This document shows positions 32,364-61,016 of a stretch of DNA of 64,000 bases, one piece after another. Each line of letters starts with the position of its first letter. The stretch's first letter is position 1. The translations under genes and the position numbers were made by a program. The notes beneath the pieces were generated by a model. That model saw only the letters and a list, made by a program, of their open reading frames with translations. It made no database searches and was not told where the DNA came from. This DNA is from an uncultured Bacteroidales bacterium (GTDB lineage Bacteria > Bacteroidota > Bacteroidia > Bacteroidales > FEN-979): NCBI GenBank assembly GCA_903945175.1, contig CAJAUM010000025.1:1-64000 (forward strand), written 5' to 3'.

Positions 32364-32422
32364 TCCTACCATGAAACCTTGGACCTGAAACCTGCAAATT
32401 GGTATTCGTAGAGGATATTAAC

Positions 32423-34051: not shown

Positions 34052-34061
34052 AACTACAAGG

Positions 34062-35885: not shown

Positions 35886-36539
35886 ATGCTGGCAAATATT
35901 TTTAACAAACGGACCCTTCAGGATCTTATAATGTATCTGGGTATTCCATTGTTAATATGGAATACGTGCCGACCATGGCTGGGCGATTATTTTTCGATGC
36001 TTCTGTCGACTTTGCCAGGTATCCTTTATACCCTGTACACCTTCTTTAAAGAAAAGCAATACAGTATCACAGGTTTATTTATTCTTGCCACCATGATCAT
36101 CGGAGGCATTCTGGATATCTACTCGAAAACGGCATATCAGATGCTTTGGAACATGGTTTATTTAAATATTGGCCTGGTGATATTCTGGTGTTTCACCATG
36201 ATCATTAAGAAACCCATGGGGATGATCTTCTTTATTGACTATGCATCACTGCATGGCGTTCCAAAGGATCATACCCGTTTGCTCTATCGCCAGATGCCAT
36301 ATTTCAAATATTTTATGTTATTGACGGGATTTTTGGCAATGCGCGATCTGTCGGATATTTTTCTGAGAATTTTCCTGATTCAGCTTTACGATGTTGAAGG
36401 TTTTAATAAGATCAAACTCATTACGCAGTTTTGGAATACTGCAACGACCGTCATGTTCGTATATGGGATCCTGTTAATCGTTAAAAAAATCCAAATTCAT
36501 GCAAAAAATGCGGATCAGGAAAAAGAGATTTTGAAATAA
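35886..36539 (+). CDS. VC0807-like multi-pass membrane protein
   Basis: A 217-residue protein with five or six membrane segments. The arrangement WLGDYFSMLLSTLPGILYTLYTFFKEKQYSITGLFILATMIIGG resembles the VC0807 family of unknown-function membrane proteins. No catalytic motif is visible. It lies between the radical SAM pair and the exporter genes on the same strand, so it may protect against, transport or help process the product; none of this is shown by sequence. The 183-bp gap before it holds no exact promoter match, only TTCATTTG at about 35855. Confidence 0.55.
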   Translation: MLANIFNKRTLQDLIMYLGIPLLIWNTCRPWLGDYFSMLLSTLPGILYTLYTFFKEKQYSITGLFILATMIIGGILDIYSKTAYQMLWNMVYLNIGLVIFWCFTMIIKKPMGMIFFIDYASLHGVPKDHTRLLYRQMPYFKYFMLLTGFLAMRDLSDIFLRIFLIQLYDVEGFNKIKLITQFWNTATTVMFVYGILLIVKKIQIHAKNADQEKEILK

Positions 36540-36560
36540 AACACGTCAGTTCTTAACGTT

Positions 36561-36584
36561 CATTCATTCATTCATTCATTCATT
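36561..36584. repeat. Tetranucleotide repeat (CATT)6
   Basis: Six perfect CATT units, 24 bases before the ATG of the 71-aa ORF. Perfect short repeats of this kind are prone to slippage, and here the length would change promoter spacing or the leader and not the reading frame. Confidence 0.9.
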
Positions 36585-36608
36585 TTTCACAAATCAAAAA
36601 TTACAACC

Positions 36609-36824
36609 ATGGAAAATCAAAAGAAAAATTTTTATCCGAATTTCCCCAAGATGCCTGCTAAAATGAACATGCCAAAGAAATCCGGTGAATCAGAACCTGG
36701 TAAAATGCCGGACCCCACCAAGTGGAACCACCATATTAAGAACCATCTGGATGAAAATGGCAATTGGAAGCCAAAATTGGTTGCATTGGGTTTAGCACAT
36801 TGGAGGAAGCAAAATATGAAGTAA
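36609..36824 (+). CDS. Small Lys/Pro/Met-rich 71-aa protein, candidate exported peptide
   Basis: I do not recognise a family. The sequence is hydrophilic and basic, with no signal peptide. The N-terminal half is rich in K, P and M (FYPNFPKMPAKMNMPKKS), and the C-terminal half reads PTKWNHHIKNHLDENGNWKPK and ends LGLAHWRKQNMK. There is no double-glycine site and no nitrile-hydratase-like leader of the kind NHLM exporters normally process. Its place between a (CATT)6 repeat and a perfect hairpin, directly before exporter genes, makes it a real gene candidate. It could be an exported peptide, a regulator or an accessory protein; which one is unknown. Confidence 0.6.
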   Translation: MENQKKNFYPNFPKMPAKMNMPKKSGESEPGKMPDPTKWNHHIKNHLDENGNWKPKLVALGLAHWRKQNMK

Positions 36825-36849
36825 ATTTTTTGAGGCTTAAACGTTTTAA

Positions 36850-36874
36850 GGCGGGTTGTTTAACACAACCCGCC
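36850..36874 (+). terminator. Perfect 10-bp hairpin, probable terminator or attenuator
   Basis: GGCGGGTTGT (36850-36859), loop TTAAC, ACAACCCGCC (36865-36874). It lies 25 bp after the 71-aa ORF and 35 bp before the HlyD-like gene. The T-tract after it is weak (ctgttggtttatt), so read-through is likely. It would make the small ORF the most abundant part of the transcript. Confidence 0.7.
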
Positions 36875-36909
36875 CTGTTGGTTTATTATGTTAACCGGTA
36901 ATAAATTTA

Positions 36910-38163
36910 ATGATGGATAAGGCAGAAAAAATACAACCTGCAGGATCAACTGGCAATCCTGAAGAGATGAACCGTATGTTGAAAATTACACGGCCACACT
37001 ATTGGATCTCCCTGACTGCCCTCGGTTTGCTCGTTATAATCACCATAATTTGGGGCATATTCGGAAGCATTCCACAACGGATTGAAGGTTTGGGGGAAAT
37101 TGTTAGCGAACAGGGCCTTCACGGGATTATCGCACTCTATCCGGGTGGTGTTGAACAGGTTAATTTTGAATTGGGGGAGAAGGTAAAAAAAGGCGATATT
37201 TTGCTTCATTTAAATCAACCTCAGGTATTACATCAACTTGTTGAACTGAATGCCGAGATGGAAGTACTGAAATTGCAGGATTCCCTTCTCAGAATTCGTG
37301 ATACACGGGATTATCCCAATAAAATGAGATATTACAGTCTTGAGGAGGAACGCTTGAAAAAGGAGACGGAACATCTTCAGGACCAGATTACTTTTTTTGA
37401 GTTGAAGATCCAGCAGCAGCAGGATTTATGGAACAAGGGCCTTGCAACAAGGGAAAATTTTGTGGATGCCAAAAATCAATTGTCGGAAGCTCATGACCAG
37501 CGAATTCAAACTGAGCAAATGGTTCGGACCAATCAGCTGGATCAGCAAACATGGATGTATGACCGTGTTTACAAGCAGGAAGATTACCTGGGCCAGATAC
37601 AGATTTTAGAAAAAAAGATAGATAATATTAGCGAGGATTATAATCGCCAGAGTATCATTGGTAGCCCGGTCGATGGCATCATTATCGATATGTCGGTGAC
37701 CAATGGCGATTTCGTAAATGCGGGTACCCGGATGATGGTGGTTGAAGATTTAGGAAACCAAAAAAACCATTTGTTAGATCTCTTTATTCCGTTTAACTCA
37801 AACGCTGAGGTAACACCGGGTATGGAGGTTATGATAGAACCATTTACTGTAAATCACAATCTTTATGGGTGGTTAATAGGCAAGGTGTTAGAGGTTAATC
37901 ATTTTGTTTCAAATACAAGCTCCATCCTCGATGAATTGAACAATCCTGATCTGGTGGCACTTATACAGCAGCAAGGTCCTACTTACCGGGTTAAGATTGC
38001 ATTGATAACTGATCCTTCAACAAAAAGCGGTTTTAAGTGGTCAAACAGAACAGGCCCCCCCTACACCATTAATACCGGTACGCTCTGTAATGCCTCCGTG
38101 CTGGTGAAGGAAAAACCTCCCATAGACTACATCATTCCAATTTTTAAATCATTTTTCGAATAA
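36910..38163 (+). CDS. NHLM-type secretion adaptor (HlyD family periplasmic protein)
   Basis: The membrane-fusion adaptor that bridges the inner-membrane ABC exporter and the TolC-like channel. It has 417 residues: one membrane helix (about 34-56, SLTALGLLVIITIIWGIFGSIP), a beta-barrel/lipoyl half-motif (LGEKVKKGDILLHL), a long alpha-helical hairpin (about 112-235) and the second lipoyl half (IIGSPVDGIIIDMSVTNGDFV). The IWGIFGSIPQRIEG opening is characteristic of the NHLM bacteriocin secretion protein family. It begins the four-gene export block; the next gene follows by 30 bp. Confidence 0.87.
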   Translation: MMDKAEKIQPAGSTGNPEEMNRMLKITRPHYWISLTALGLLVIITIIWGIFGSIPQRIEGLGEIVSEQGLHGIIALYPGGVEQVNFELGEKVKKGDILLHLNQPQVLHQLVELNAEMEVLKLQDSLLRIRDTRDYPNKMRYYSLEEERLKKETEHLQDQITFFELKIQQQQDLWNKGLATRENFVDAKNQLSEAHDQRIQTEQMVRTNQLDQQTWMYDRVYKQEDYLGQIQILEKKIDNISEDYNRQSIIGSPVDGIIIDMSVTNGDFVNAGTRMMVVEDLGNQKNHLLDLFIPFNSNAEVTPGMEVMIEPFTVNHNLYGWLIGKVLEVNHFVSNTSSILDELNNPDLVALIQQQGPTYRVKIALITDPSTKSGFKWSNRTGPPYTINTGTLCNASVLVKEKPPIDYIIPIFKSFFE

Positions 38164-38193
38164 CCACCCGTAAAAATCTAGCGAGACCTTACC

Positions 38194-40368
38194 ATGAGCA
38201 ATCTGCATGTGAAAAAAAAGGTTCCGGTCATTCTCCAGATTGGTGAAAATGAATCCGGTCCGGTTGCGCTCACAATGGTTTTTTCCTTCTACCATTGTAA
38301 CCCGGCAAAGGATGCTCTAAACCAGGAATGTGGTGTTTCTGATAATTCAAAAATACCGATCGACCGATTAATGAAGGTAGCCGCAGGCCATGAGTTTATA
38401 TCGGAAGTCCGCTCTTGTGGCATTGAAGAGCTAAAGTCACTTCAATTGCCAGTTATCATTGGGATTAATGGTGGATATTACAGTGTCTTAACCGGCTATA
38501 ATAAAGATACTTTCCAGGTAAATGACACCCATGAAGGGAAGACGCGCCTAAGCGGAGCGGAACTGGAAAAGGCGTATGACGGTCACACCTTGGTTATTAC
38601 ACCCGGCCCCGATTTTAAATCAGACAAAGAGAAGAACGTATTTTTTGACAGAGTTTGGGGTCGAATAGCTCCTAGCAAGTTTGATTTGGGTTTTGTTTTA
38701 CTGTGTGGGACCATACTGGTTATACCTGCAATAATTATGGCCGGGTTGAATAAACTGTTTTTTGATGATATTATTGGATTAAAACAGCCAATGTACTTCA
38801 AACCTATGTTGGTGTTGATTGCCGGGCTTTTCTTTTTAAATGGCTTTCTTACATATCTGCAACAAAAAATTCTTGTCAAAGTTGAACTACGCCTTGCCAT
38901 TGTTGAGTCCTCAAAACTTTTGATGCATATTTTAAAGCTTCCCATCCGATTTTTTATGACGCGCCAACCTGGAGAAATTTTTAAGCGCGTTCAACTCAAT
39001 GACGACCTGGCATCCTTGCTCTCAACCCAACTTGCAGGCACGGTTTCAAGCATGATTACAGTTATATTTTATGCTGCTGTCATGATCCAGTATAATGTTC
39101 TTCTTACTGTAATTGGGGTCAGTGTAATCCTGGTCAACCTTTTTGTGCTTCGCATCATTTCTGAAAAAAGATCCACCCTGAACCAGCTGCTTTTTGAGCG
39201 CAACCAACGTACATTCAGCACCGCCGGTGTCGGGCTTGAGCAAATAGAAACCATAAAAGCTACCGGATCCGAAAACGATTTTTTCGGTCTGTGGTCGGGA
39301 AACCTTTCCAATGCAGTTGTGTTTGATCAGAAGCTGAATTTTACTTCCAACCTTCTTGATGCGTTACCAGATTTTCTCTCAAACCTGAATAATATCATTT
39401 TATTGACGCTTGGCGGGCTGCTCGTTATTTATGGCGAGATGACCATTGGTATTTTCATTGCATTCCAGAGCCTGATGTCTAATTTTACCGGACCTGTAAA
39501 GTCTGTTGTTTCTATGGGAAGCGACATGCAGGTGGCAAAGAGCAATATCAACACCATTCAGGACGCTTTGTCGACCAAACCGGATATCTATTATAATGAT
39601 GAGACCGTTGAAAACCCACAATCCATCACTGCTGCAAATTCCAAATTACATGGATTCCTTGATTTTAAAAATGTCACCTTCGGGTATGATCGCTTCCGTG
39701 ATCCACTGATAGAGAACTTTTCATTGCATGTTGAACCGGGACGAAGGATTGCCCTGGTGGGAGGTTCTGGATCAGGAAAATCGACCCTGGCAAAACTGGT
39801 GGCCGGGTTATACCACCCCTGGGCCGGGCAAATTCTTTTCGATAACTGCGAACGGAACGCATTTCCGCAAGATTTAATCAGAAACTCCGTTTCACTTGTT
39901 GATCAGGAAATATTCCTTTTCAAAGGAACAGTCAACGAGAATATCACAATGTGGAATAATACCATTGGTACGCCCGACATTATCCAGTCGACCAAAGATG
40001 CCTGCATTCACGATGTTATCTCATCAAGACCCGGCGGTTACACCAGCATGCTTATCAATGCAGGAAACAACCTCAGCGGAGGACAGCGGCAACGGATAGA
40101 AATTGCCCGTGCATTGGTCGTTAACCCTACTATTCTTGTGATGGATGAAGCGACCAGTGCCCTGGATGCAAATACCGAAAAAAGCATTGATAATAACATA
40201 CGCCGGCGGGGCTGTACCACGCTTATTATTGCCCACCGGCTCAGTACGATCCGCGATTGCGATGAAATCATTGTGCTTGATAATGGAAAAGTAGCTCAGC
40301 GTGGAACACACGGGGAATTGGTTAGGGACAGGCAAGGGCTTTATTTTAAACTGGTAAATCTAAACTGA
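38194..40368 (+). CDS. NHLM-type ABC exporter 1 with a degenerate C39 peptidase domain
   Basis: A half-size ABC exporter of 724 residues. Residues 1-135 form a C39 peptidase-like domain. Aligned by eye to active relatives (QMEAVECGAAAL, NHFLVVEGF, LNDPASG), this protein has Ser21 for the catalytic Cys (NESGPVAL), Tyr95 for the His (GGYYSVLTGY), and keeps Asp111 (VNDTHEG). It should not cleave. Six membrane helices follow, then a complete ATPase: GGSGSGKST (about 523-531), LSGGQRQRIEIARAL, ILVMDEATSALD, IAHRLSTI. The body matches NHLM exporter 1 closely (GEIFKRVQLNDD, IETIKATGSENDFF). It probably binds cargo like the HlyB C39-like domain and pairs with the next gene's product. Confidence 0.88.
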   Translation: MSNLHVKKKVPVILQIGENESGPVALTMVFSFYHCNPAKDALNQECGVSDNSKIPIDRLMKVAAGHEFISEVRSCGIEELKSLQLPVIIGINGGYYSVLTGYNKDTFQVNDTHEGKTRLSGAELEKAYDGHTLVITPGPDFKSDKEKNVFFDRVWGRIAPSKFDLGFVLLCGTILVIPAIIMAGLNKLFFDDIIGLKQPMYFKPMLVLIAGLFFLNGFLTYLQQKILVKVELRLAIVESSKLLMHILKLPIRFFMTRQPGEIFKRVQLNDDLASLLSTQLAGTVSSMITVIFYAAVMIQYNVLLTVIGVSVILVNLFVLRIISEKRSTLNQLLFERNQRTFSTAGVGLEQIETIKATGSENDFFGLWSGNLSNAVVFDQKLNFTSNLLDALPDFLSNLNNIILLTLGGLLVIYGEMTIGIFIAFQSLMSNFTGPVKSVVSMGSDMQVAKSNINTIQDALSTKPDIYYNDETVENPQSITAANSKLHGFLDFKNVTFGYDRFRDPLIENFSLHVEPGRRIALVGGSGSGKSTLAKLVAGLYHPWAGQILFDNCERNAFPQDLIRNSVSLVDQEIFLFKGTVNENITMWNNTIGTPDIIQSTKDACIHDVISSRPGGYTSMLINAGNNLSGGQRQRIEIARALVVNPTILVMDEATSALDANTEKSIDNNIRRRGCTTLIIAHRLSTIRDCDEIIVLDNGKVAQRGTHGELVRDRQGLYFKLVNLN

Positions 40369-40369
40369 T

Positions 40370-43297
40370 ATGGAGCAGCAAACGATTTCTTCGTTTTATA
40401 GCCAAACTGTGCAACTGGTCAGTAATCAGCCACTTTCTCTAAACAGCCGTTCAACAGTAGGTTTCTACCTTGAAGAGGGCGATGCCGATGTTTTCTATGT
40501 TGAAAAACTACCCACCGGTCCGGGCAGGAGACTATTCCTCATCAGAGTAAATGGCCCGTTTCTGATACCATCATTTAAGGAAAATGATTCCCTGTCGATG
40601 GTTATTTATGCGTTAACGAATTGTACCATCGGAGTTCTCAATACGGATTCATTGAACAGTCTTGTATCGGCAAACACCGATTATGCTTCATCTCTTTTTG
40701 ATAGTTGGTTAATCAAGGTCTCTTCAGGACTGAACCAATTCGGAACAATGCCCCTGTTAAACGGTCTCACAGCGATGCCCTCCTTTTCGGCCGATCCGCT
40801 GAAAAGCTACAGCGCATCCAACCCCGATGAAGTGTTATGGGTGGAAGCGATGGGCCTGAAACCACTATATTATCATATTGCTGATCCTTTGTCGTTGAAT
40901 ATCAAATTCTTGCCGATTACATCAAATCTTTGGATGAATTTTGGCGTAACTACACAGAGAAAAATATTTCTGACAAGGCAAATTATTGCAGATGATCAGT
41001 TTCTGCCTCAGTTATTTGAATTTAATAATCTGATTATAATCGTATTAAAAAATTTATACGCTTCGGAGCAAAAAATTGAACTTGCCCAGGTTAAAGAAAC
41101 ATACACCTACAGGACGCAATCAGTTTCCAGTGCACTGAGACGGTTCAAATCTATTATTACGGGTAAAGATAACGATGATCTTTTTAAAGACGTCAAGAGC
41201 CCCGGTGGAGACCCATTCACTCCGGTTAATGAGAAGATGCTGATCCTGCAAACCTGTCAGTTAATTGGTGAGGGAGAGAAGATCGATTTCATCGACCCGG
41301 GAACCCGTATCAGCGATAGGCATGATTCTCTCTGGAACATTCTCAGGGCTTCAAACATCCGTTCGAGAATGGTAACCCTTGAACCGCACTGGTGGACCAA
41401 TAATGCCGGCTCGATGCTTGGTTTTCTTAAAGATGGCCATACGCCTGTGGGACTTATTGCCAGAGGAAATACAGGGTACTGGATGATTGATCTGAAGAAC
41501 CGTAAAAAGGAGGTGGTAACAGAAGCGGTTCACCAGCAACTGGATTCAAGGGGATATAGTTTTTTCACACCTTTTCCCAAGGGAAAACTTCAGGGCAAAG
41601 AACTAATTCGTTTTGCCCTTCAATTTACCTACAAGGATATTGTCAGTTTTATGGTTATTGGTATCATTGGCGCGTTGCTGGCGTTGATTATTCCTGTTGT
41701 TGGAGGATATGTATTCAATAAGGTAATTCCTGGAGGCGACACCAGTGAGCTTTGGCAGATCGGGGCTATTATGGTCATTTGTGTAATCACAATCGGCCTA
41801 CTGAATTTTGCTAAATCCATTGCGGTTCTCAGGATAGCCGGAAAGGCAGGTTATAAGCTCCAGTCAGCCTTATGGGACCGTATACTATCCCTTAAAGTTG
41901 ATTTTTTCAGGAACTACAGCCCTGGCAACCTTGCTGAGCGAAGTATGGGGATTGAGCGGATCCGCGATACACTGTCAACGACCGTCCTGGGCGCCATGAT
42001 TTCGGGAATTTTTTCGGTTTTTTATCTTGCGCTTCTGTTTTTTTATGATCTCAAGCTGGCACTACTTGCCCTCTTTCTGGGACTTGTGGTTGCCGGATTT
42101 ACTCTTACAATCAGTTTATTGGCATATAAACACGTCGTATTCATGCGCCGTATGGATGCCATGATTTCCGGGTTCCTACTCATGGCTATTCGCGGAATTA
42201 ACAAAATACGGGTTACCGGCAGCAAAGAAAAGGTGTTCTCCTTGTGGGCTGACCGGTATGCGCAGCAAAAAGTCCATTACCGTCAAAAACGTACGCTACT
42301 CATGGTTGCAAGTATTTTCACGGTGACTTTTCCTGTCCTTGCATCCATGCTTATTTTTATCAGGGTATATGACATTTTTACTTCGGGAATGCCCGGTTTC
42401 GGCATCGGAGATTTCGTAGCATTCAACAGTGCCTATCTCAGCTTTCAGGGAGCCATGATACAAACTTTCATGGTCACAGTACCTTTGCTGAACATCAAGC
42501 CTACATATCAATTGTTTCAACCGATTTTAGAGGCCGATACCGAAGATATGAACGAGAAACTTGATCCGGGGGAGCTCAGCGGCGGCATCGAAATCACAAA
42601 ACTGAGTTTTCAATATCCGAACGCTCCAGACTGGAGCCTGAAAGATCTTTCCATGGTGATTTCTCCAGGTCAGTTTGTGGCGATTACCGGAAGTTCTGGT
42701 TCAGGAAAATCAACGTTGGTGAGGTTACTGCTCGGATTCGAAAATTATAATACAGGTAGTATTCTTTTTGATGACAGGGAGCTTAAAGATCTTGATATCA
42801 GAGGTATAAGAGATCAATTGGGCGTTGTGTTGCAGAATTCAAAAATTATGCAGGGAACCGTTTTGTATAACATTACGGGTTCATCTCTCTTCACGGAAGA
42901 GGATGCCTGGAGGGCTGCTGAGATGGCAGGATGTGATGATGAGATCAGAAACCTTCCAAACAGGATGTATACAATACTGCCTCCTGGCGGCGATACCTTG
43001 TCGGGAGGACAGCAGCAACGAATCATTATTGCACGGGCGCTGATCCGTAATCCGAAGATATTTATTTTTGATGAGGCTACCAGCGCACTCGACAATGAAA
43101 CACAAGGGATCGTTAGCGCAAGTATTGAAAAACTGAATGCTACACGTATCGTAATAGCACATCGCCTGAGTACCATCATCAATGCTGACCGGATTTTTGT
43201 GCTTGACAAAGGTCAGCTTATCGAAGAGGGCAGCTACCAGGAACTAATTGAGAAGAACGGGTTCTTTGCAGAACTGACCCGGCGTCAATTGGCATGA
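40370..43297 (+). CDS. NHLM-type ABC exporter 2, ATP-binding protein
   Basis: The partner exporter subunit, 975 residues, starting one base after the previous stop. It has a long N-terminal cytosolic region (about 1-420) that lacks a peptidase signature and resembles the cyclic-nucleotide-like N domain of NHLM exporter 2. Six membrane helices follow (starting IVSFMVIGIIGALLALIIPVVGGYVFNKVIPGG), then the ATPase GSSGSGKST (about 774-783), LSGGQQQRIIIARAL, IFIFDEATSALD and IAHRLSTI. Both ATP sites look intact. With the adaptor and the TolC protein it makes a complete trans-envelope export route. Confidence 0.88.
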   Translation: MEQQTISSFYSQTVQLVSNQPLSLNSRSTVGFYLEEGDADVFYVEKLPTGPGRRLFLIRVNGPFLIPSFKENDSLSMVIYALTNCTIGVLNTDSLNSLVSANTDYASSLFDSWLIKVSSGLNQFGTMPLLNGLTAMPSFSADPLKSYSASNPDEVLWVEAMGLKPLYYHIADPLSLNIKFLPITSNLWMNFGVTTQRKIFLTRQIIADDQFLPQLFEFNNLIIIVLKNLYASEQKIELAQVKETYTYRTQSVSSALRRFKSIITGKDNDDLFKDVKSPGGDPFTPVNEKMLILQTCQLIGEGEKIDFIDPGTRISDRHDSLWNILRASNIRSRMVTLEPHWWTNNAGSMLGFLKDGHTPVGLIARGNTGYWMIDLKNRKKEVVTEAVHQQLDSRGYSFFTPFPKGKLQGKELIRFALQFTYKDIVSFMVIGIIGALLALIIPVVGGYVFNKVIPGGDTSELWQIGAIMVICVITIGLLNFAKSIAVLRIAGKAGYKLQSALWDRILSLKVDFFRNYSPGNLAERSMGIERIRDTLSTTVLGAMISGIFSVFYLALLFFYDLKLALLALFLGLVVAGFTLTISLLAYKHVVFMRRMDAMISGFLLMAIRGINKIRVTGSKEKVFSLWADRYAQQKVHYRQKRTLLMVASIFTVTFPVLASMLIFIRVYDIFTSGMPGFGIGDFVAFNSAYLSFQGAMIQTFMVTVPLLNIKPTYQLFQPILEADTEDMNEKLDPGELSGGIEITKLSFQYPNAPDWSLKDLSMVISPGQFVAITGSSGSGKSTLVRLLLGFENYNTGSILFDDRELKDLDIRGIRDQLGVVLQNSKIMQGTVLYNITGSSLFTEEDAWRAAEMAGCDDEIRNLPNRMYTILPPGGDTLSGGQQQRIIIARALIRNPKIFIFDEATSALDNETQGIVSASIEKLNATRIVIAHRLSTIINADRIFVLDKGQLIEEGSYQELIEKNGFFAELTRRQLA

Positions 43298-43356
43298 AAC
43301 TGTAAAATCTGATCAACTCATGAATCGGACAGACATTTAACAAGGTTAATAGAGCA

Positions 43357-44886
43357 ATGAAAAAGACAATCCTGATCCTCATCCTTCTTGCAGCGGGAAC
43401 CTCAATTGTGAAATGCCAAGAGACCTTTAATTATGATTCCTTGTCTACATTCAGGATACTGCAGACAGGTCTTGAGACAAATTTTAACATCAAGTTGAAA
43501 AGATATGTAGTGAATGGAAGCATGGGGCAAATGACTACTGCCAAAGGCATCTTTAATCCGCAACTTACGATGGAAGGTTATGGATTTTATGGTCAGGATC
43601 CAACGATGACATTCCAGGATTCCTATTCCCTGAAGGGACAGCTTTTAGTTCCTACCCGTTCTGGAATCAAGTTCTATACGGGATTTAAGCTTTCCAACGA
43701 AATCGATATAATTACCGGTGCTCCGGGAATTTTTCCTTCTCAGTATTTACTTATCAATGAATCGGGTATGTGGGCCGGTTTTTACTTGCCCCTCCTTCGC
43801 GATCTTGGCCGAAACAATTCCAACAATGTAACATTTCTTTCAGCCAAAATGATGTACAAAGCCCAGAGTGTTTCGTTTAACGATGGGATATGCCAGTTCA
43901 TCAGGGATGCCCTTATATCATATTATAATACGTATCAGTGCGTTACAGCTTTCAAAATACTGCGCGATGCCAATAAAGATGCACACGAATACGTTGCCGA
44001 TATTCAGGCATTGATAGATAATGAGCAATTACCAAAAACCGAGGTCTATCGAGCACAAGCCTATCAGCTCAACATTTCCCAACAATTTTCATTGGCGCGC
44101 AATGATATCGTTAATTCATTCTATGATCTCATTACCTCTTTGGGTATAAAAGGAACCCTGGTTGCCAATACTTTACCTACCTTTCTTGATTCGCTTCCTG
44201 ATCCATCCACCTTTCCGTGGGACAAATATTCAGCCTACATTATCAGGAACATTGATTCAATGGTGGTCAATACTCCGTATTTTAAAAGTCAGGACCTGCT
44301 GACTTCCTCCTCTCAGATTATAATGAATGGCGCAAAGTTTAATCAGTTAAATGATCTTAACCTTGATTTTCGATTCATGTATTTCGGGTCAACAGTAGGT
44401 GAGCCGATTTCGCAATTCGGAGACAGTTTTTCCAGTGGGTTGCCGGGATCTGCCTTGAATATTACCTTGTCATATAAGATACCTTTTTTGAATGAGGAGC
44501 GTAAAGGCGATTACCTTTCCAAACTATCTACCTTTGAATACAACAACACGCAACTCCAGAGGGTGAAATTTGAGGCGAAATCGAAGGTTTATAAACTTTT
44601 AAGCGATATTGGGAATCTTATGCCTTTATTCAAGAACCAGATTGATCTCGCCGAAATTGAGAAAAAAACTTTCCAGAGTGAAGTTCAGAAATTTGATATG
44701 GGGGCTTCAACCCAGATCGATATGATCAATACCTATATGGATTATAATAAGGCCCTTTTGAATGTGGAGTCAGGTCGTCTGGCAATTATCAACAGGGTGA
44801 TAAACCTGAAATATCTGATCGGAGACTTTCCCGTAAGTTCTGATGAGCTGGTCACTTATAATCCCTGGGTTTTCAACACGAAATAG
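43357..44886 (+). CDS. TolC-family outer-membrane efflux protein
   Basis: The outer-membrane exit duct of the export system, 509 residues. A signal peptide (MKKTILILILLAAGTSIVKC) is followed by alternating long helices and short beta strands, with the repeat of a helical region near 170-270 and again near 390-480 typical of TolC. SLKGQLLVPTRSGIKFYTGFKLSN and ALNITLSYKIPFLNEERKGDYLSKL are beta-strand stretches, the latter a common TolC-family block before the second helical pair. It lies 59 bp after the exporter gene and 49 bp before the first NRPS gene, which ties export physically to biosynthesis. Confidence 0.83.
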   Translation: MKKTILILILLAAGTSIVKCQETFNYDSLSTFRILQTGLETNFNIKLKRYVVNGSMGQMTTAKGIFNPQLTMEGYGFYGQDPTMTFQDSYSLKGQLLVPTRSGIKFYTGFKLSNEIDIITGAPGIFPSQYLLINESGMWAGFYLPLLRDLGRNNSNNVTFLSAKMMYKAQSVSFNDGICQFIRDALISYYNTYQCVTAFKILRDANKDAHEYVADIQALIDNEQLPKTEVYRAQAYQLNISQQFSLARNDIVNSFYDLITSLGIKGTLVANTLPTFLDSLPDPSTFPWDKYSAYIIRNIDSMVVNTPYFKSQDLLTSSSQIIMNGAKFNQLNDLNLDFRFMYFGSTVGEPISQFGDSFSSGLPGSALNITLSYKIPFLNEERKGDYLSKLSTFEYNNTQLQRVKFEAKSKVYKLLSDIGNLMPLFKNQIDLAEIEKKTFQSEVQKFDMGASTQIDMINTYMDYNKALLNVESGRLAIINRVINLKYLIGDFPVSSDELVTYNPWVFNTK

Positions 44887-44935
44887 CAGATCGATTTTTA
44901 AAATTTTAATTAACCGGGTGGTCCAACAGTTAATT

Positions 44936-47900
44936 ATGGATAAATTTATTCCTTTACACGAGGAAATATTCCTGAAGTCGGCAACAACACCCGAATCACG
45001 AGCAATAATTGATCAGAATGAGGGTATCAGTTTCAACAGTCTTGACCATTTTTCCTCCAAACTTGCCTGGCAGTTGCAGGAGTCGGGGATAGGACCGGGA
45101 TCTAAAGTTGGAATTTATTTACATCCTGATTTAAGCCTGGCTATTTCAATATTTGCCGTCCTCAAATCCGGGGCGGCTTATATCCCGCTCTCTCCCCATT
45201 TTCCTGAAGAGCGGATAAGGTTTATACTTCATGATGCAGCAGCAAAATTTGTTATTACCGATAAAACACTATCAAATGCGCTGGCTTCTGTGCATACCCC
45301 TTTGTTTATCCCGGATTGGCCAAGCCTAAAGCAACATGATGAAAGAAGAGTCTTAAAGCCAATCGATATCAATCCATCCGACCTGGCTTACATATTGTAT
45401 ACCTCTGGTTCTACGGGCAATCCGAAAGGAGTAATGATTGAACACAGAAACCTCAGCTATTACATCCACTGGTTTTGTCAGTCGGTTATATCTCAATCCA
45501 GGGTCGGGCTGCCATTGACATCGTCATTTATCTTTGCTGCCGCCGTCACACAATTTTATTCAACCCTCCTCTCAGGAAAAACGCTTCACATGCTGGATCC
45601 ATTTATGGTGCGTCAACCTGAAAAATTGTTAGAATGGTATGCTACACATCCTGAAATGGGCTTATACTGTGTGCCAACACTTTGGTCGGAAATTCTTCAT
45701 TATTTGGAGACAAGAAATGGAGCGGTCTCTGAAAATATGGCACCATCTTGTGTTTATCTTTCAGGAGAAGCCGTTACAGATGTTCTGCTTAAAAGATGCT
45801 TCAGGTTTTTCCCCAACTTACAACTCTGGAATCTTTATGGCCCTACGGAGGCAACAGCCAACCTTACCGCCACCCGCCTGTATCCTGAAAACCCTGTCAA
45901 TATTGGAAAACCGCTCGAAGGAACAAAAATATTCATCGTAGGCGATGACCTGGCTCTGGTCGATACCGGTGCTCCTGGCGAACTTTTAGCAAGCGGACCG
46001 GGCATTGCCCGGGGATATCTTAACCTGCCGGGACTTACCAGTAAAACCTTCTTTCCCATAACATTCAATGGAGGGGCTCCAATAGATGTATATCGAACCG
46101 GTGACCTGGTTAAGGAAGATGAATCGGGACTACTGATTTATCTCGGTCGCAAAGACCAGCAGGTTAAAATTCGCGGGTTCCGTATCGAACTTCCCGAAAT
46201 AGAACAAGCCCTGCTTGCCATACCCGAGGTGAAACATGCCATTTTAAAGGTTGTCGAAGACAGGCAAAATGGGAAAAGGCTGGCAGCCTACCTGGTATAC
46301 AAACGGGAGATAACCATCCCTGTTAATGAGCTGCGCAAACACCTGAGGCGCACTCTTCCCGATTTCATGGTGCCTGAGGTATTTGTAACCCTTGAGCATC
46401 TGCCACAACTCCCAAATGGAAAAATTGACCGCAAATTGCTGCCACTACCGGGAATTCAAAGACCCGATCTTGGATATCAGTTTATTTCCCCTGTAACTCC
46501 TGATGAAAAAAGGATGATCCGTGTTTGGGAAGAGGTGCTGGGAATAGAAGGTGTTGGACTGGAAGATAACTTCTTCGATCTTGGAGGCAATTCATTAAAG
46601 GCAAATGCAATCGTTGTTGAATTGAATGCTGCAACAGGCGTTTCCATTCAGATTAAGAATATTTTCGATGCGCTCACTCCCGGAAGCCTGGTCAGGCATA
46701 TTGCCCTTACATCAGAGAACCAACAGACGGAGATGGTGTCGGATAGCAAACCTGCCTTTGTGCATACGACTTCGCATAAAAGCTATTCCCCGGAAGATGA
46801 ATTCCCCGGTGGCCTTCCACCGGGATTATCTGAAAATCAGAAAGCCCTTTGGTTTGTTCAGCATGCTTATCCAACTCTTTCAGCCTATAATATTCTTTAC
46901 AGTATTGCAATTACAGGTTCTTTAGATTTAAAGGCTCTTGAAAAGGCGCTCAGTCAAATTATTGATAAGTACCCAATACTGAAAACAAAGTTTCAGATAA
47001 AGAAAAATCAAAACAGGGAAGAGCATCAGGTTTTGAATGATAAACTTTTGGAGACATTCAATCCGCAACCTGAAAATTTGCCATTTTCTTCATCTCAGGC
47101 CCATGCCCATGCCAGCACTCAGGCAGCGCTCCCTTTTAACCTGGATCAAGAGCTCCCTTTTCGAATGATCCTGTACGAACTGGAGGATCATCAGTTTGTG
47201 CTTGCATTCATTGTGCACCATATTGTCTTTGATGGATCTTCATTTGAAATTTTTCTTAGGGAGCTTTCTTTCTTCTATGATCAGGAAAAATCGGGGTTTT
47301 TGTCAGGTCCCACAGTTCCGGCAGTGTCTTATAACCATTTTTGCGAAGAAGAGATGCATTACCTGAGCGGAATAAAATATTCGGAAGACAGGCAATACTG
47401 GCAACAGCAACTATTATCAGCCCCAACGCACTTTGAAATCCCTACTGATTTTACCCGGCCTGCAACCGTCACCTATGAAGGGGGACAAGTCAGGAGCATA
47501 ATTGATCCGATACTAAAATCAAAATTAAAAAAAATTAGTGATGATGTGGGTGCCAGTATGTTTATGACCTGCCTGGCTGCTTTTTCGATCCTCTTATATC
47601 GTCATACCGACCGTAAGGATTTTCTTGTTGGCATCCCTGTTGCGAACCGGGTAAAAAAAACCTTTGTATCTATGATGGGGTATCTTGTCAACACCATGCT
47701 TTTCAGGGCAAAGATCGATCCGGGTTTGTCGTTCATGGATTGGCTGGGATTGGTGCGGGAGCAGATCCTCGAAAATCTTCATCATTCCAGGTTTCCCTTC
47801 AGCCGGATGAGCGAAGTAATTAAAACCGAACGGATCCCGGGCATCAATCCGTTTTTTCAGGTGATGTTTGCATATCATGAAACAAATTGGGAGTTTTCAA

Positions 47901-50056
47901 CCCGGTCTGGTATAAACGGTATGGCTGGAGAAACGTTTTTCGGCTGTTCAAAATTCGATCTTTTTACCGAAATTTTCGACCGGAAAGAAGATACCGAAAT
48001 AGTTGTTACCTATTCATCGCAGCTTTACCATCCGGCAACAGTCGCGATACTGCTTGACCATTTTATTCAGTTACTTGAGCACCTCTGCATTTCTCCAGAA
48101 GCCAAAATGAATGAGCTAATCCTTCATTCACCTGCAGAGTATAACCGGATTGTGTACACATGGAATCAGAATGTCTTCACGCATGAGAATAAGGAAAATA
48201 TAGTCGACCTGATCGATCAGCAGATTGAAAGAACTCCCGACCTGCCGGCGCTGGTTTCACGGCATGAGGTTATTTCGTACAGGGAGATGGGGCACAAAAC
48301 GGATGTTATGGCATCTAACCTGCGTCGTCTTGGATTTAAAAATGGGATGACTGCCGGTATTCATATTGAAAATTCTCCGGTTATGGTTATGTGCATCATC
48401 GCTGTTTTTAAAGCAGGAGGCATTTACATTCCGATGGATCCCTATTACCCTCAGGAGCGTCTCCGTTATGTCATTGAAAAGACCAGGACACGGTTTCTGG
48501 TTGTTGACGATGACTGTGCGAACCGGAAACAGGAATTATCGGAACAGATCATACCGGTCAGTAAACTGCTGATCGAATCTGCAGATCACTTGCCTGCAGG
48601 AACATATGGTCATACAAATTCGGACGGTCTGGCATATATCATGTTCACATCTGGATCAACAGGTAATCCGAAAGGCGTGATGGTCGGTCACGATAGCTTG
48701 CGGAATCTTCTTGTCTGGATGAAGATGGAGATAAACCTTTCGCCGAAGGATACAGTTTTATCTACTGCATCCATCAATTTCGATATCTCTTTTATAGAGC
48801 TGTTTGCCCCATTGATCAGTGGCGCCAGGCTGGTGTTGGAAAAAAGAAGCGGGTTACAGGCTCCTGAAAAGATTGAAGCCATCCTGAATGAGATGAAGGT
48901 GAATATCATACAGTTTGTTCCCTCAGGGCTTAAAGCTTTGTGTGATGCTGGTACATTGCGGCGGGCTTCTCACCTGAGATGCATTATTTCAGGAGGTGAG
49001 AAGCTGTCGAAAATCCTGCAGGAGCAGATTTTCGGAGAATTTGATGGCGAGTTGATAAATTCGTATGGTCCAACAGAAGCTACTGTTTATGTGACATGCT
49101 GGCATTGCCTTCGCGACAATCCACTCAGGACTGTGCCCATTGGCACGCCTATTTTCAATGCATCCATGTATATTTTGAATGAAAACCTGGAGCCGGCTCC
49201 AATCGGGATAACCGGTGAAATTTATATCGGAGGCGATGTTCTTGCAGATGGGTATTTTGAAGACCCGGAACAAACATCTTCCCGGTTTCTTGCCAATCCA
49301 TTCATTCAAGGCACAGGGAACAGGATATATAAAACAGGCGACTTAGGCAGGTTTCTGCACAATGGTTCTGTGGAAATTCTTGGCAGAAGTGACCATCAGG
49401 TGAAAGTTCGCGGTTTCCGGATTGAACTTGGCGAAGTTGAATCGGTTATACAGCGTTTTCCCGGGGTCAGACATGTATCGGTTCAAGTGAGTGATAAAAC
49501 AGCAGAAGATGTCAGGCTTTCTGCATACCTGATTCCTGAACCCGGATCAACAATTAATAAGAATGAATTAAGGGATTTTTTGCGTCTTCATCTTCCGGTT
49601 TACATGATTCCCGGGCATTTTATGATTTTACCTAAGTTTCCATCGCTGCCCAATGGGAAGTTGGATACTAAGTCATTGGTCAGTCTTCGGCCGCATGCTC
49701 CTAAAATTCCCGAATTCATTCACCATCAAATGAACGAGACGGAGGTTTCACTTTCAGCCATTTGGAATGAGATCCTTGATCATGATTCATTCACCATGAA
49801 GGATAATTTTTTTGAAGCAGGGGGTCATTCTCTGCTTTTGGTGAGGATGAAAGAGCTCATCGCTGAAAAATTGAATGCGGAAGTCAGCATTGTCGATCTT
49901 TTCCATTATCCCTCGATCTCAAGTCTTGCTGCTTTTCTGAGAAAGGATAAGCCTGAAAACCCCATTTCCGATATTGCTAAACGCGTTGCTATGCGGAACA
50001 GGAATATCAAGCAACAGATCATTAAACGAATCTTCCCGGATAAAAATCAATTCTAA
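44936..50056 (+). CDS. Non-ribosomal peptide synthetase, A-T-C-A-T
   Basis: First assembly-line protein, 1706 residues. A1 (about 20-510): YTSGSTGNPKG with Thr156; A10 NGKIDRK. T1: DLGGNSL with Ser553. C (about 590-1030): HHIVFDG, His761/762. A2 (about 1060-1570): FTSGSTGNPKG with Thr1238, NGKLDTK. T2: EAGGHSL with Ser1632. By-eye specificity residues are A1 = A-A-T-C-Y-S-L-A-N-K and A2 = D-I-I-Q-I-G-S-V-Y-K. A1 lacks the Asp that normally binds an alpha-amino group, so it may load a non-amino acid starter; A2 looks like an amino-acid domain. There is no thioesterase, so the chain passes to the PKS. ATG 44936 was chosen over a longer frame that overlaps the TolC gene. Confidence 0.92.
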   Translation: MDKFIPLHEEIFLKSATTPESRAIIDQNEGISFNSLDHFSSKLAWQLQESGIGPGSKVGIYLHPDLSLAISIFAVLKSGAAYIPLSPHFPEERIRFILHDAAAKFVITDKTLSNALASVHTPLFIPDWPSLKQHDERRVLKPIDINPSDLAYILYTSGSTGNPKGVMIEHRNLSYYIHWFCQSVISQSRVGLPLTSSFIFAAAVTQFYSTLLSGKTLHMLDPFMVRQPEKLLEWYATHPEMGLYCVPTLWSEILHYLETRNGAVSENMAPSCVYLSGEAVTDVLLKRCFRFFPNLQLWNLYGPTEATANLTATRLYPENPVNIGKPLEGTKIFIVGDDLALVDTGAPGELLASGPGIARGYLNLPGLTSKTFFPITFNGGAPIDVYRTGDLVKEDESGLLIYLGRKDQQVKIRGFRIELPEIEQALLAIPEVKHAILKVVEDRQNGKRLAAYLVYKREITIPVNELRKHLRRTLPDFMVPEVFVTLEHLPQLPNGKIDRKLLPLPGIQRPDLGYQFISPVTPDEKRMIRVWEEVLGIEGVGLEDNFFDLGGNSLKANAIVVELNAATGVSIQIKNIFDALTPGSLVRHIALTSENQQTEMVSDSKPAFVHTTSHKSYSPEDEFPGGLPPGLSENQKALWFVQHAYPTLSAYNILYSIAITGSLDLKALEKALSQIIDKYPILKTKFQIKKNQNREEHQVLNDKLLETFNPQPENLPFSSSQAHAHASTQAALPFNLDQELPFRMILYELEDHQFVLAFIVHHIVFDGSSFEIFLRELSFFYDQEKSGFLSGPTVPAVSYNHFCEEEMHYLSGIKYSEDRQYWQQQLLSAPTHFEIPTDFTRPATVTYEGGQVRSIIDPILKSKLKKISDDVGASMFMTCLAAFSILLYRHTDRKDFLVGIPVANRVKKTFVSMMGYLVNTMLFRAKIDPGLSFMDWLGLVREQILENLHHSRFPFSRMSEVIKTERIPGINPFFQVMFAYHETNWEFSTRSGINGMAGETFFGCSKFDLFTEIFDRKEDTEIVVTYSSQLYHPATVAILLDHFIQLLEHLCISPEAKMNELILHSPAEYNRIVYTWNQNVFTHENKENIVDLIDQQIERTPDLPALVSRHEVISYREMGHKTDVMASNLRRLGFKNGMTAGIHIENSPVMVMCIIAVFKAGGIYIPMDPYYPQERLRYVIEKTRTRFLVVDDDCANRKQELSEQIIPVSKLLIESADHLPAGTYGHTNSDGLAYIMFTSGSTGNPKGVMVGHDSLRNLLVWMKMEINLSPKDTVLSTASINFDISFIELFAPLISGARLVLEKRSGLQAPEKIEAILNEMKVNIIQFVPSGLKALCDAGTLRRASHLRCIISGGEKLSKILQEQIFGEFDGELINSYGPTEATVYVTCWHCLRDNPLRTVPIGTPIFNASMYILNENLEPAPIGITGEIYIGGDVLADGYFEDPEQTSSRFLANPFIQGTGNRIYKTGDLGRFLHNGSVEILGRSDHQVKVRGFRIELGEVESVIQRFPGVRHVSVQVSDKTAEDVRLSAYLIPEPGSTINKNELRDFLRLHLPVYMIPGHFMILPKFPSLPNGKLDTKSLVSLRPHAPKIPEFIHHQMNETEVSLSAIWNEILDHDSFTMKDNFFEAGGHSLLLVRMKELIAEKLNAEVSIVDLFHYPSISSLAAFLRKDKPENPISDIAKRVAMRNRNIKQQIIKRIFPDKNQF

Positions 50057-50067
50057 AAACCACACTC

Positions 50068-53000
50068 ATGCAATCTGATGAAGGAAAAAATTTTGAAGGT
50101 AAAATTGCGATCATCGGCATGGCCTGCCGCCTGCCTGGTGCAAGAAATATATATGAATACTGGAAGAACCTTCTTGACGGGGTTGAAACGATGAGCACCT
50201 TTTCCGATAAGGAACTCCTGGCAGCGGGTGTAGATCCCTCGGTATTCAGACAGCCAAATTATATCAGAAATCGAGGTATTATTGATGGAGCTGAATATTT
50301 CGATGCGGAATTTTTTGGGTATACCCCCCGCGAAGCCGAGTTGATGGACCCCCAGCAAAGGGTATTCCTCGAATGCTCCTGGCATGCCCTCGAAGATGCA
50401 GGCTGCGATCCCTATCACACAAAGGAAAGGATTGGTGTTTTCGGAGGCACAGGGACACCGCTTCACCTGGTCGAAACGATGGCAAACCCCTGGGTCCGCA
50501 AGAATGCGAGTGGAGCATCCATTGTTACAAGCAATGACAAGGATTATGTCACGACAAGGGTCTCGTACAAACTGAATCTGACTGGTCCCAGCTTCGATGT
50601 GCAAAGCGCCTGTTCAACCTCCCTTGTTGCCATTGTTACAGGGATCAACAGCCTGATAAGCTATCAGAGCGATCTGATCATTGCAGGTGGAGCAACGATC
50701 GAACTGCCCGAACGGCATGGTTATCTTTACCAGGCTGGCGGTATGGAATCGGCCGACGGGCATTGCAGAACCTTTGACAAGGATGCCAACGGAACTGTTT
50801 TCAGCCGGGGTTGCGGAGTGATAGTACTCAAGCGACTGGAGGATGCATTGCACGATCGCAATCATATTTATGCCGTTATCCTTGGAGGTGCCGTAAATAA
50901 CGATGGCAACAAAAAAGTAGGATACACTGCGCCTTCGGTTGAAGGCCAGGTCGAAGTCATTACAGAAGCCCTTGCCTTGTCGGATATCTCTGCAGATACG
51001 ATAACGTATGTTGAGGCTCATGGTACAGCAACTCCGATCGGAGACCCCATCGAAGTGACTTCACTTTCTGAGTCGTTCAGGAAGCATTCTGCAAGAAAAC
51101 AATTTTGTGCCATCGGATCGGTCAAAACCAACATAGGGCATACCGACATTGCCTCTGGGGCAGCAAGCATCATCAAAACTGCGCTATGCCTTAAGAGCAG
51201 AAAGATCCCTGCTTCCTTGCATTTTAATGAGGCAAACCCGAAGATCGATTTTCAGAACAGTCCGTTTTTTGTCAATACGGAACTCAGGGACTGGCTGCCG
51301 CAAAATGGCACACCACTGCGTGCCCTGGTGAATGCATTTGGTGTGGGCGGCACCAATGCCTGTATTATTCTTGAAGAGGCTCCGGTGGCCCGCATGGAGG
51401 CAGATGACCTTCCCTGCGATTTGCTGCTTGTTTCCGGCCGCAGTCAAAATGCAGTGAATGCAGCCCAGTCGGAAATCAAAGCTTTTCTTGAAGCATTTCC
51501 AGAGGCAGATCCACACGCCATTGCCTACACTTCTCGTTATGGCAGGCATCCGTTCCTTAACAGAACAGCCATACCATTCAGGAACAGGGAAGATTTGCTC
51601 GCAGCGCTGGGAACAAAAACGGCCACATCGATAAAATCACCTGAGAAAAAACCCCTGGTGTTTATGTTCCCCGGACAAGGAAATCAGTATATCAAGATGG
51701 GACTGCCTTTATATGAAACCCAGGAAGTATTCAAACAGACGATTGATGAATGTTCTGAAATCCTGAAAGAGGAATTGGGTTTCGACATCCGCACTATACT
51801 CTTCCCTTCCCCTGCCGATGAAGTAGAGGCTTCTATTAAAATCAACGAAACGTATATTACACAACCCGCTCTTTTCATGGTCAGCTATGCACAGGCGAAG
51901 TTGCTGATGTCGCTGGGCCTTCAGCCCGACATGCTGATTGGCCATAGCGTGGGTGAATATGTTGCCGCGGCCATCTCTGGGGTGTTTTCACTGAAGGATG
52001 CATTGAAAGCCGTTGCCCGCAGGGGGCGGCTGGTTCAGGATCTTCCAGGGGGAGCCATGCTAGCCATTCTGCTTACCGAAGAACAACTGTCGCCATTACT
52101 CCCGGAAGGCCTTGAGATAGCTGTTGTGAACAGCCCGGGATTATGCGTTGTGTCAGGCCCGGTTGAGCTGATCGACCGTTTTGCCGATCAGATGAATAAA
52201 ACGAGAACCTTCAATAAAAAGATTCCGACTTCGCATGCCTTCCATTCGGCTATGATGGACCCGGCTTTGCCTGCCTTCGCCGAGTTTTTCAAAGAAATCT
52301 CCCTCTCTGCGCCAACGATTCCGATTGCCTCAACGGTAACCGGACAATGGTTAAGCGCCGGAGAATCGACCAATCCCGATTTCTGGGTGAAGCATGTCAG
52401 AAAAACAGTGCGGTTTGCTGATGCCGCTAAGCTATGCATTGATGCAGCTCCATCTATTTTCATAGAGTCAGGTCCGGGACAATCCCTCGAATCGGCCGTC
52501 AAACGACAGCTTACAAAGGAAAGTCCGCACGGGGTCTTCAGCACCATCCCTTCATTGGATACCAAAGCAGATCCCCTGATTTATTATTATTCGGCGTTGG
52601 GCCAACTCTGGGGTCTGGGTGATTATTTTAACTGGGAGTTGTTTGACTCAGGTAAAAGGCAGATGATCTCATACCCGGGCTATCCCTTCGAACGTAAACC
52701 CTATAGCATTGATTTCTCGCGCAAAGATAACTCCAAGACCAAATCTGAAATTAAAAAGAAACCCGACATCCTCCAGTGGTTCTACATTCCCGGCTGGAAG
52801 AGAACTGCCCCTCCTCAATGGATTCCTGCCAACGGTATGGCTGCTGCGGAACAAACTTCTGAAAAAACCTGCTGGCTGCTGTTTACTGATGAATCGGGCC
52901 TTTGTGACAGAATCGCGGAAGAACTGCAATCGGAAACCATTCCTTTTTTCAAGGTAAGAAAAGGAAAGGACTTTGAAAAGCTGGAAGATGGCTTTGCTCT

Positions 53001-55650: not shown

Positions 55651-56788
55651 CGAACTGTTAAAGAAGATCGCAAATCTTTCTCCCTTACAGAAAGATATCC
55701 TTTTAAAACGCCTTGGTTATGCTTCAGCGAAGGGGGCCGAAAATCACGACAACCAGGTAAAGGAGGAGCTACACCTGCCGGATTGTTTTTCCTGCGATCC
55801 CGGTAATCCCGGTACATTGAATATCAGCTTCAGAGAAGCTGCAGTTGCTGACCCTCCCGAAGGTTATGTGCAGGTGAAGGCGCGGGCAGCCGGTATGAAT
55901 TATCGTGACCTGATGATTGCCATGGGACAATATCCGGAAGCTCCTGGAGTGCCATCGAATATGGGATCGGATTATGCGGGCATCGTGACGCGGGTTGGGG
56001 CAGGGGTTGAGGGTATAAGGGAAGGCGATGAAGTCATTGCCCTTTCGGCTGGTACGTTTATCGGAGGCCAGGTGCAGCCCCAGAGCCATTTTATTAATAT
56101 TTTCAACGTTTCACACCTGCAGGTCGTGCCAAAACCTGCGTTGCTCAGTTTTGAAGATGCGGCTGCAGTTCCTACTGTTTTCCTTACGGCTTTCACCGGA
56201 CTGGTAAGGCTGGCAGGCCTTACTGAAGGCGAATCGGTATTGATCCATACAGCCACAGGTGGCGTAGGCCTGGCAGCACTTGAGATAGCCCGCTGGAAAA
56301 AGGCTGAAATATATGCAACGGCAGGATCGCCGGAGAAAAGAGAATTCCTTGTTAAACGAGGAATCGTTCATCCCATGGATTCCAGATCCGTTGCCTTTGG
56401 CGAGGAGATCATGGAACTCAGCAGGGGCAGGGGTGTCGATGTGGTATTGAATACTCTTTCGGGAGATGCCATGATGAAAGGAATGGAGGTTCTTGCGCCG
56501 TTCGGCCGTTTTATTCAGCTCGATAAAAAGGACATTGCAAGGAATTCACTTCTGCCGATGAACCTGTTCAGAAAAGGGATCACTTTTTCGGTTCTCGACA
56601 TTTCTTTGTACCTGATACAGCCGCGCAAGCTGAAAGAACAACTCATGGAAATCGCCGCGCTTTTCAACAGTGGTGTTTTTAAACCGATTCCTTGTGTGAC
56701 ATTCCCTGTTCAAGAGCTTAAAGAAGCGCTTACAGCCATGTCGCGTTCGAAACATATCGGAAAACTTGTGCTCACCTATTCATCGTAG
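55640..56788 (+). CDS. Free-standing enoyl reductase (MDR family), probable trans-acting PKS ER
   Basis: A medium-chain dehydrogenase/reductase of 382 residues resembling PKS enoyl reductase domains and quinone oxidoreductases. NADPH site: TATGGVGLAALEIAR; also AAGMNYRDLMIAMGQYP and GSDYAGIVTRVGAGVEG, and the ER-typical LNTLSGDAMMKGMEVLAPFGRFIQLDKKD. No zinc ligands are evident. The first 30 residues (NDELLKKIANLSPLQKDILLKRLG) are a helix like the linkers at the front of NRPS/PKS proteins and could dock on the synthase. It overlaps the PKS gene by 11 bp. Together with KR and DH it would give full reduction of the added C2 unit. Confidence 0.85.
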   Translation: MNNDELLKKIANLSPLQKDILLKRLGYASAKGAENHDNQVKEELHLPDCFSCDPGNPGTLNISFREAAVADPPEGYVQVKARAAGMNYRDLMIAMGQYPEAPGVPSNMGSDYAGIVTRVGAGVEGIREGDEVIALSAGTFIGGQVQPQSHFINIFNVSHLQVVPKPALLSFEDAAAVPTVFLTAFTGLVRLAGLTEGESVLIHTATGGVGLAALEIARWKKAEIYATAGSPEKREFLVKRGIVHPMDSRSVAFGEEIMELSRGRGVDVVLNTLSGDAMMKGMEVLAPFGRFIQLDKKDIARNSLLPMNLFRKGITFSVLDISLYLIQPRKLKEQLMEIAALFNSGVFKPIPCVTFPVQELKEALTAMSRSKHIGKLVLTYSS

Positions 56789-56850
56789 TTGCAGGCGAAA
56801 ATTTAGAGTGAAATTCATCGAATAAACAACAGCCGGGATTTCATCCGGGA

Positions 56851-60990: not shown

Positions 60991-61016
60991 AAGGAGATCG
61001 CACCAATGAAGATCGC

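Follow-up and report, generated by a model that had tools for sequence, protein, structure and literature searches.

An NHLM-type exporter whose C39 domain has lost its catalytic Cys and His lies within a conserved NRPS-PKS block in one family of Bacteroidales

In this study, we describe an exporter locus at positions 36910..44886 of the window, a stretch of 64,000 nucleotides of DNA from an uncultured Bacteroidales bacterium, and the conserved block of genes spanning 35886..61766 in which it lies. The coordinates given earlier for the four exporter genes agreed with those obtained on rechecking. The block comprises the following genes:

35886..36539, + strand: VC0807-family membrane protein, first gene of the block (NF041646, 84.8 bits, cut-off 65)
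36609..36824, + strand: small protein of 71 amino acids with no Pfam or NCBIfam match, a candidate partner of the exporter or a rival cargo
36910..38163, + strand: HlyD-like adaptor of the NHLM type (TIGR03794 passed with 263.6 bits, cut-off 156.2)
38194..40368, + strand: ABC1, with a C39-like domain (residues 9-140 approximately), a membrane domain and an ATPase (PF03412, TIGR03796)
40370..43297, + strand: ABC2, partner permease/ATPase without a peptidase (TIGR03797 passed with 769.5 bits, cut-off 709.4)
43357..44886, + strand: TolC-type outer membrane channel (PF02321, 34 bits, cut-off 22)
44936..50056, + strand: NRPS1, A-PCP-C-A-PCP (the longest open reading frame would begin at 44843)
50068..55650, + strand: PKS, KS-AT-KR-DH-ACP (domain matches and motifs)
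55640..56788, + strand: discrete enoyl-reductase-like zinc-type dehydrogenase (PF13602, PF00107, PF08240)
56851..60990, + strand: NRPS2, C-A-PCP-TE (domain matches and motifs)
60969..61766, + strand: phosphopantetheinyl transferase (PPTase), last gene of the block, its position conserved (PF01648, 50.3 bits)

The start of NRPS1 was set at 44936 because the matches of its orthologues begin at or near that Met.

The exporter genes resemble the NHLM/NHLP three-gene exporter (TIGR03794/TIGR03796/TIGR03797), a cassette which, according to passages of PMC2887384, was first recognised through its tie to NHLP precursors. The adaptor and ABC2 passed the curated models, and ABC1 covered nearly the full length of TIGR03796 (positions 1-709 of 710 aligned), but its 794.0 bits lay below the curated cut-off of 853.3. 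The locus also differs from that cassette in the loss of the C39 Cys and His, in having no leader peptide (TIGR03793) on the contig and in the adjoining NRPS-PKS genes. The same set of exporter genes was found grouped in Spirosoma oryzicola, but with the TolC gene ahead of the adaptor gene. Walker A, LSGGQ, DEATSALD and H-loop motifs were present at residues 523, 627, 647 and 680 of ABC1 and at residues 774, 877, 897 and 930 of ABC2, and the ATPase sites of both proteins are, judged by these motifs, intact. The earlier note had described an intact ATPase in ABC1 together with a complete adaptor, second ABC gene and TolC gene, and on all of these points it was correct.

Pattern searches of the downstream genes detected the main NRPS motifs and the KS, AT and ACP motifs of the PKS; patterns A7 and A10 were without an exact match in NRPS2. 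The genes are predicted to encode a complete assembly line with a release domain (A-PCP-C-A-PCP, KS-AT-KR-DH-ACP, ER, C-A-PCP-TE and PPTase). The domain order of the PKS, KS-AT-KR-DH-ACP, is uncommon for a single PKS module, and the enoyl reductase is encoded as a separate gene. On by-eye reading, the first adenylation domain (44936-46700) seems to lack, at what we presume to be its position, the Asp by which such domains usually hold the amino group of an amino acid, and the starter may therefore not be an alpha-amino acid. Relatives of the PKS were matched in 35/395 genomes of a class sample, the window's own included, with identities of at most 45% outside the block.

The N-terminal domain of ABC1 matched PF03412 with 60.6 bits over residues 10-139. 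Alignment matched Ser21 to the catalytic Cys of C39 peptidases, Tyr95 to their His and Asp111 to their Asp, with Gln15 of the oxyanion site kept, and the register was identical when the domain was aligned to LahT150 (6mpz). That Ser21 and Tyr95 stand in place of the Cys and His of active domains, as had been noted before, was borne out by comparison with relatives. The Cys, His and Asp were found in 37 of 38 relatives that had been collected by whole-length HMM or BLAST, independently of any Cys pattern, the remaining one (L012) being cut short at that region. They were likewise kept in 114/114 relatives of a wider set, which leans towards Cys because it was found in part with a Cys-containing pattern (80 of 543 matches kept).

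Orthologues of this ABC1 were identified in 12/43 genomes of the window's family (window included), belonging to three of its eight genera, and showed 77-100% identity across their first 475 residues. Residue 21 was Ser in all 12; residue 95 was Tyr in 10 and Asn in 2; and residue 111 was Asp in 9, Asn in 2 and Ser in 1. As the loss was common to 12 orthologues, a sequencing error or a lone pseudogene was ruled out as its cause, and repetition in 12/12 likewise indicates that the substitutions are not due to chance; the 12 genomes are related drafts, and so are not independent trials. The family also has seven ordinary NHLM paralogues, which were only 32-34% identical to ABC1 and all had the Cys, His and Asp. 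The matches listed included a public copy of one orthologue (L042), CAIJYT010000078.1, from an uncultured Bacteroidales bacterium. Searches with TIGR03796 at E 1e-150 recognised no further orthologue in overlapping samples of 198 order, 395 class and 395 phylum genomes, a partial match in G798 being set aside. A plasmid search with ABC1 gave relatives 37-43% identical among the ten matches listed. In a quick tree of 56 rows, thinned from 126 and built with the C39 columns left out, the 12 exporters formed one branch with a long stem (SH-aLRT 100); their nearest neighbours were two ordinary exporters, one of them from Chlorobium, and this placement was weak (support 91). The proposal that the exporter no longer cleaves is strongly supported by this comparison, and the C39 domain of the clade is accordingly termed dead below.

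The dead domain has diverged faster than its active counterparts. At membrane-domain identities of 0.80-0.90, C39 identity was 0.68 in the dead clade vs 0.86-0.88 in active relatives (57 vs 111 pairs). When this range was divided into bins of 0.80-0.85 and 0.85-0.90, active C39 identity was 0.86 and 0.88 (79 and 32 pairs) and that of the dead clade 0.68 in each (8 and 49 pairs), and in the bin of 0.90-0.95 the values were 0.75 in the dead clade (8 pairs) vs 0.91 in active relatives (10 pairs). Among the active relatives, C39 identity tracked membrane-domain identity. In the dead clade, dN/dS by the Nei-Gojobori method, with many synonymous sites near saturation, was 0.18 in the C39 domain (59 of 66 pairs usable), 0.045 in the membrane domain (47 pairs) and 0.038 in the ATPase (52 pairs). 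Faster divergence together with a dN/dS of 0.18 indicates that constraint on the domain is relaxed and yet that selection persists. The acceleration would also suit a decaying relic without a role, but we regard that reading as very improbable in view of this dN/dS, of an ABC1 reading frame that is open in 12/12 orthologues (723-724 residues), and of 24 residues (Ser21 counted, initiator Met excluded) that are invariant in the clade and each found in <10% of relatives. These include Gly17, Asn19, Ser21, Cys35, Asn43, Asp50, Ser52, His66, Gly90, Gly93 and Gly94. Gln15, Glu20 and Gly22 are retained as well, and these together with the 24 clade-invariant residues suggest that the dead domain still binds something, perhaps a polypeptide.

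Cys35 and His66, invariant across all 12 dead orthologues, each occur in 5/114 active relatives. This pattern could be expected if the two residues formed a relocated catalytic pair in a domain that is still an active peptidase. However, position 35 lies 14 residues past the old nucleophile and should thus lie away from the old site, the contig carries no NHLP precursor, and there is no other credible free small open reading frame; an active peptidase of this kind is therefore extremely improbable.

By sequence, the nearest solved relative of the C39 domain is LahT150. A profile built from the domain and its relatives matched 6mpz with an E of 1.8e-58 vs 9.5e-7 for the HlyB domain (3zua), although with 38 rows, 26 of them active, the makeup of this profile favours LahT; the C39 sequence of the window alone ranked the two likewise (1e-8 for LahT150 vs 0.65 for HlyB). 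According to passages of PMC6363468, LahT cleaves leaders, its catalytic residues are Cys27, His101 and Asp117, and the leader helix sits in a hydrophobic groove some 20 A from them.

It had also been suggested that the exporter works like HlyB, and this held only as an analogy. HlyB likewise has a non-catalytic C39 relative at the exporter N-terminus and is partnered with HlyD and TolC. The Cys is replaced in the window's domain too, and its fold may be retained, as its sequence suggests. The likeness does not extend to the sequence itself, which is nearer to LahT150, nor to the His. In the passages of a review (PMC8277102) that concern it, the Cys of HlyB is replaced by Tyr and His83 is kept, stacked on a Trp, whereas the window's clade has Ser in the Cys column and Tyr or Asn in the His column in 12/12 orthologues. 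No match to an RTX cargo was obtained among 21 window proteins scanned with Pfam. On sequence grounds, the window exporter is a variant of the NHLM exporter that stands outside the HlyB group, and its dead C39 domain seems to have been derived separately from that of HlyB, out of an NHLM exporter.

Analysis of the surrounding genes revealed a fixed association with the NRPS-PKS genes. The order membrane protein, small protein, adaptor, ABC1, ABC2, TolC, NRPS1, PKS, enoyl reductase, NRPS2 and PPTase was complete in 9/12 orthologous loci on the stretches read. In G926, G938 and G940 the block was interrupted at contig ends; the rest of it was found at the ends of second contigs in G938 and G940, and in G926 a second contig supplied the PKS and the final part of NRPS1, the last three genes not being seen. 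The PKS was present in the same 12/43 family genomes as the exporter (E 1e-200), and the other 31 had neither. A second genuine PKS without an exporter was ruled out in G923: across 16,161 bases the contig in question, C67, matches the G946 locus with 100% identity and has therefore probably been mis-binned, and TolC also stands at its start. Divergence of ABC1 was moderately correlated with that of nine other block genes (Spearman 0.41-0.70). As far as their contigs extend, all 12 dead exporters thus adjoin the NRPS-PKS genes in this one arrangement.

Around ordinary exporters, the window's NRPS/PKS were matched in 0/81 loci at E 1e-20, at least 8 kb downstream being available in 55 of the 81. 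At E 1e-5, two weak PKS-like matches appeared in these loci (26% identity along 272 and 347 residues, with E near 1e-12), and the membrane protein, small protein and PPTase were absent from all 81. In the eight stretches surrounding the seven family paralogues, no NRPS/PKS match appeared at E 1e-5. Fixed gene order and presence in the same 12/43 genomes strongly support the view, also put forward in the earlier note, that the exporter was recruited into an NRPS-PKS locus.

The flanks of the block varied. Five flank genes of the window were sought in the other 11 stretches, some of them short; none was found in 10, and two were found in G922. These two are tandem radical SAM genes (32399-34051 and 34038-35702) just upstream of the block in the window, 67% identical to each other, the first with a B12-binding Pfam match. 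At E 1e-100 the pair was found in 1/19 genus genomes, the window's own, and in G922, which belongs to another genus, it lies at 88-90% identity on the opposite side of the block; it is possible that the pair represents shared tailoring genes moved between species. An epimerase gene that flanks the block in the window lies, in G936 and G940, on a contig other than that of the block. As the assemblies are drafts, these differences only hint at mobility of the block. Elsewhere in the window lie two K+ transporter genes in tandem (8393-10360 and 10460-12427), both belonging to the K_trans family.

The same genome carries a natural control, an ordinary NHLM exporter on contig C3 (L163, L164) with an intact C39 domain and six NHLP leader peptides on the contig. 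A profile search of the genome with TIGR03793 (E up to 1) gave eight matches, of which seven were above the cut-off, six on C3 and one on C52, and the eighth, below it, was on C42; this threshold is loose, as 5/14 control genomes also matched, none above the cut-off. No leader peptide was detected by this search on C25, the contig of the window, and no leader-bearing precursor was thus found near the dead exporter. The frame at 36609-36824 is, judged by eye, the sole credible free small open reading frame of the locus; others were dismissed as precursors on the same by-eye judgement.

A profile search (E 0.01) detected the small protein in exactly the same 12/43 family genomes as the exporter, and in one of 198 order genomes, the window's own. 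The copies in G923, G936 and G938 were missed by tblastn and were placed by reading of open reading frames and by the profile. The membrane protein is present in all 11 loci, the own included, whose stretch reaches that far, and the small protein sits between it and the adaptor in 11/11; the G940 copies of both genes lie on a second contig. In its relatives the small protein has 67-157 amino acids, with a variable, Pro-rich N-terminus and a conserved, basic C-terminus. No GG motif is present in the window's copy, and none is conserved in the relatives. With synonymous sites near saturation, median dN/dS was 0.19 in the C-terminus (19/55 pairs usable) vs 0.27 in the remainder of the protein (35/55).

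This protein, which the earlier note passed over, could itself be the cargo, secreted uncleaved in the fashion of HlyB by means of a C-terminal signal, with the metabolite leaving otherwise or decorating it. Its occurrence with the exporter, always just upstream of the adaptor, its conserved C-terminus and the apparent selection on it all fit, and parts of the review cited above (PMC8277102) associate inactive C39-like domains with C-terminal signals. The cargo reported there, however, is large RTX protein of >50 kDa, not a protein of 67-157 residues, and no export signal was recognised in a reading without a prediction program. In G922, moreover, the small-protein frame runs on from the membrane protein, so that the small protein may be translated as its tail, which argues against a secreted cargo. 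We consider this reading unlikely, although it is the most plausible of the alternatives. The continuous frame in G922 would better suit an anchored partner, and the small protein might be a detached leader-like partner that docks on the groove of the dead C39 domain and gates the exporter or joins it to the assembly line. Retention of the domain after loss of its catalytic residues, and its coupled presence with the small protein, are consistent with such a role, but a conserved GG is absent from the protein, no NCBIfam model matches it, and the proposal is doubtful. Equally tentative, and held with slightly less confidence, is the idea that an exporter of ribosomal peptides became a carrier of a non-ribosomal product, with the dead peptidase serving as receptor for the small protein as a leader in trans that links assembly line and exporter.

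The explanation we favour, as probable though well short of certain, is that of an NHLM-derived tripartite exporter which was captured by the NRPS-PKS cluster, lost its peptidase and became dedicated to export of the cluster product. Linkage is not proof of a substrate; nevertheless, the NRPS-PKS product is the most likely cargo in view of linkage, co-occurrence, the lack of a leader peptide and the thioesterase at the end of the assembly line. The NHLM cassette of two ABC half-transporters, HlyD adaptor and TolC channel would have been captured once, in one Bacteroidales family, and the C39 Cys and His would have been lost once, probably because the cargo carries no leader to remove. The assembly line, with its one reducing PKS module, would release a short peptide-polyketide into the cytoplasm, from which the ABC1/ABC2 pair would take it up and export it in a single step via the adaptor and TolC. 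The C39-like domain would persist as a module that no longer cuts but serves in docking or gating.

A literature search covering titles and abstract openings, with few subscription journals, gave no report of an NHLM exporter whose C39 domain is inactive, nor of one that serves an NRPS/PKS cluster, and the terms 'ABC transporter' and 'peptidase' are absent from the papers on puwainaphycin and laxaphycin (PMC4219810, PMC7524897). The dead C39 domain described here seems to have arisen in an NHLM exporter in step with a changeover of its locus from ribosomal synthesis to non-ribosomal synthesis. The exporter thereby offers a natural test of the role of C39 domains in transport once cutting is gone, with the active paralogue in the same genome as a built-in control, and it may provide a small Bacteroidales metabolite with a one-step export route across the outer membrane.
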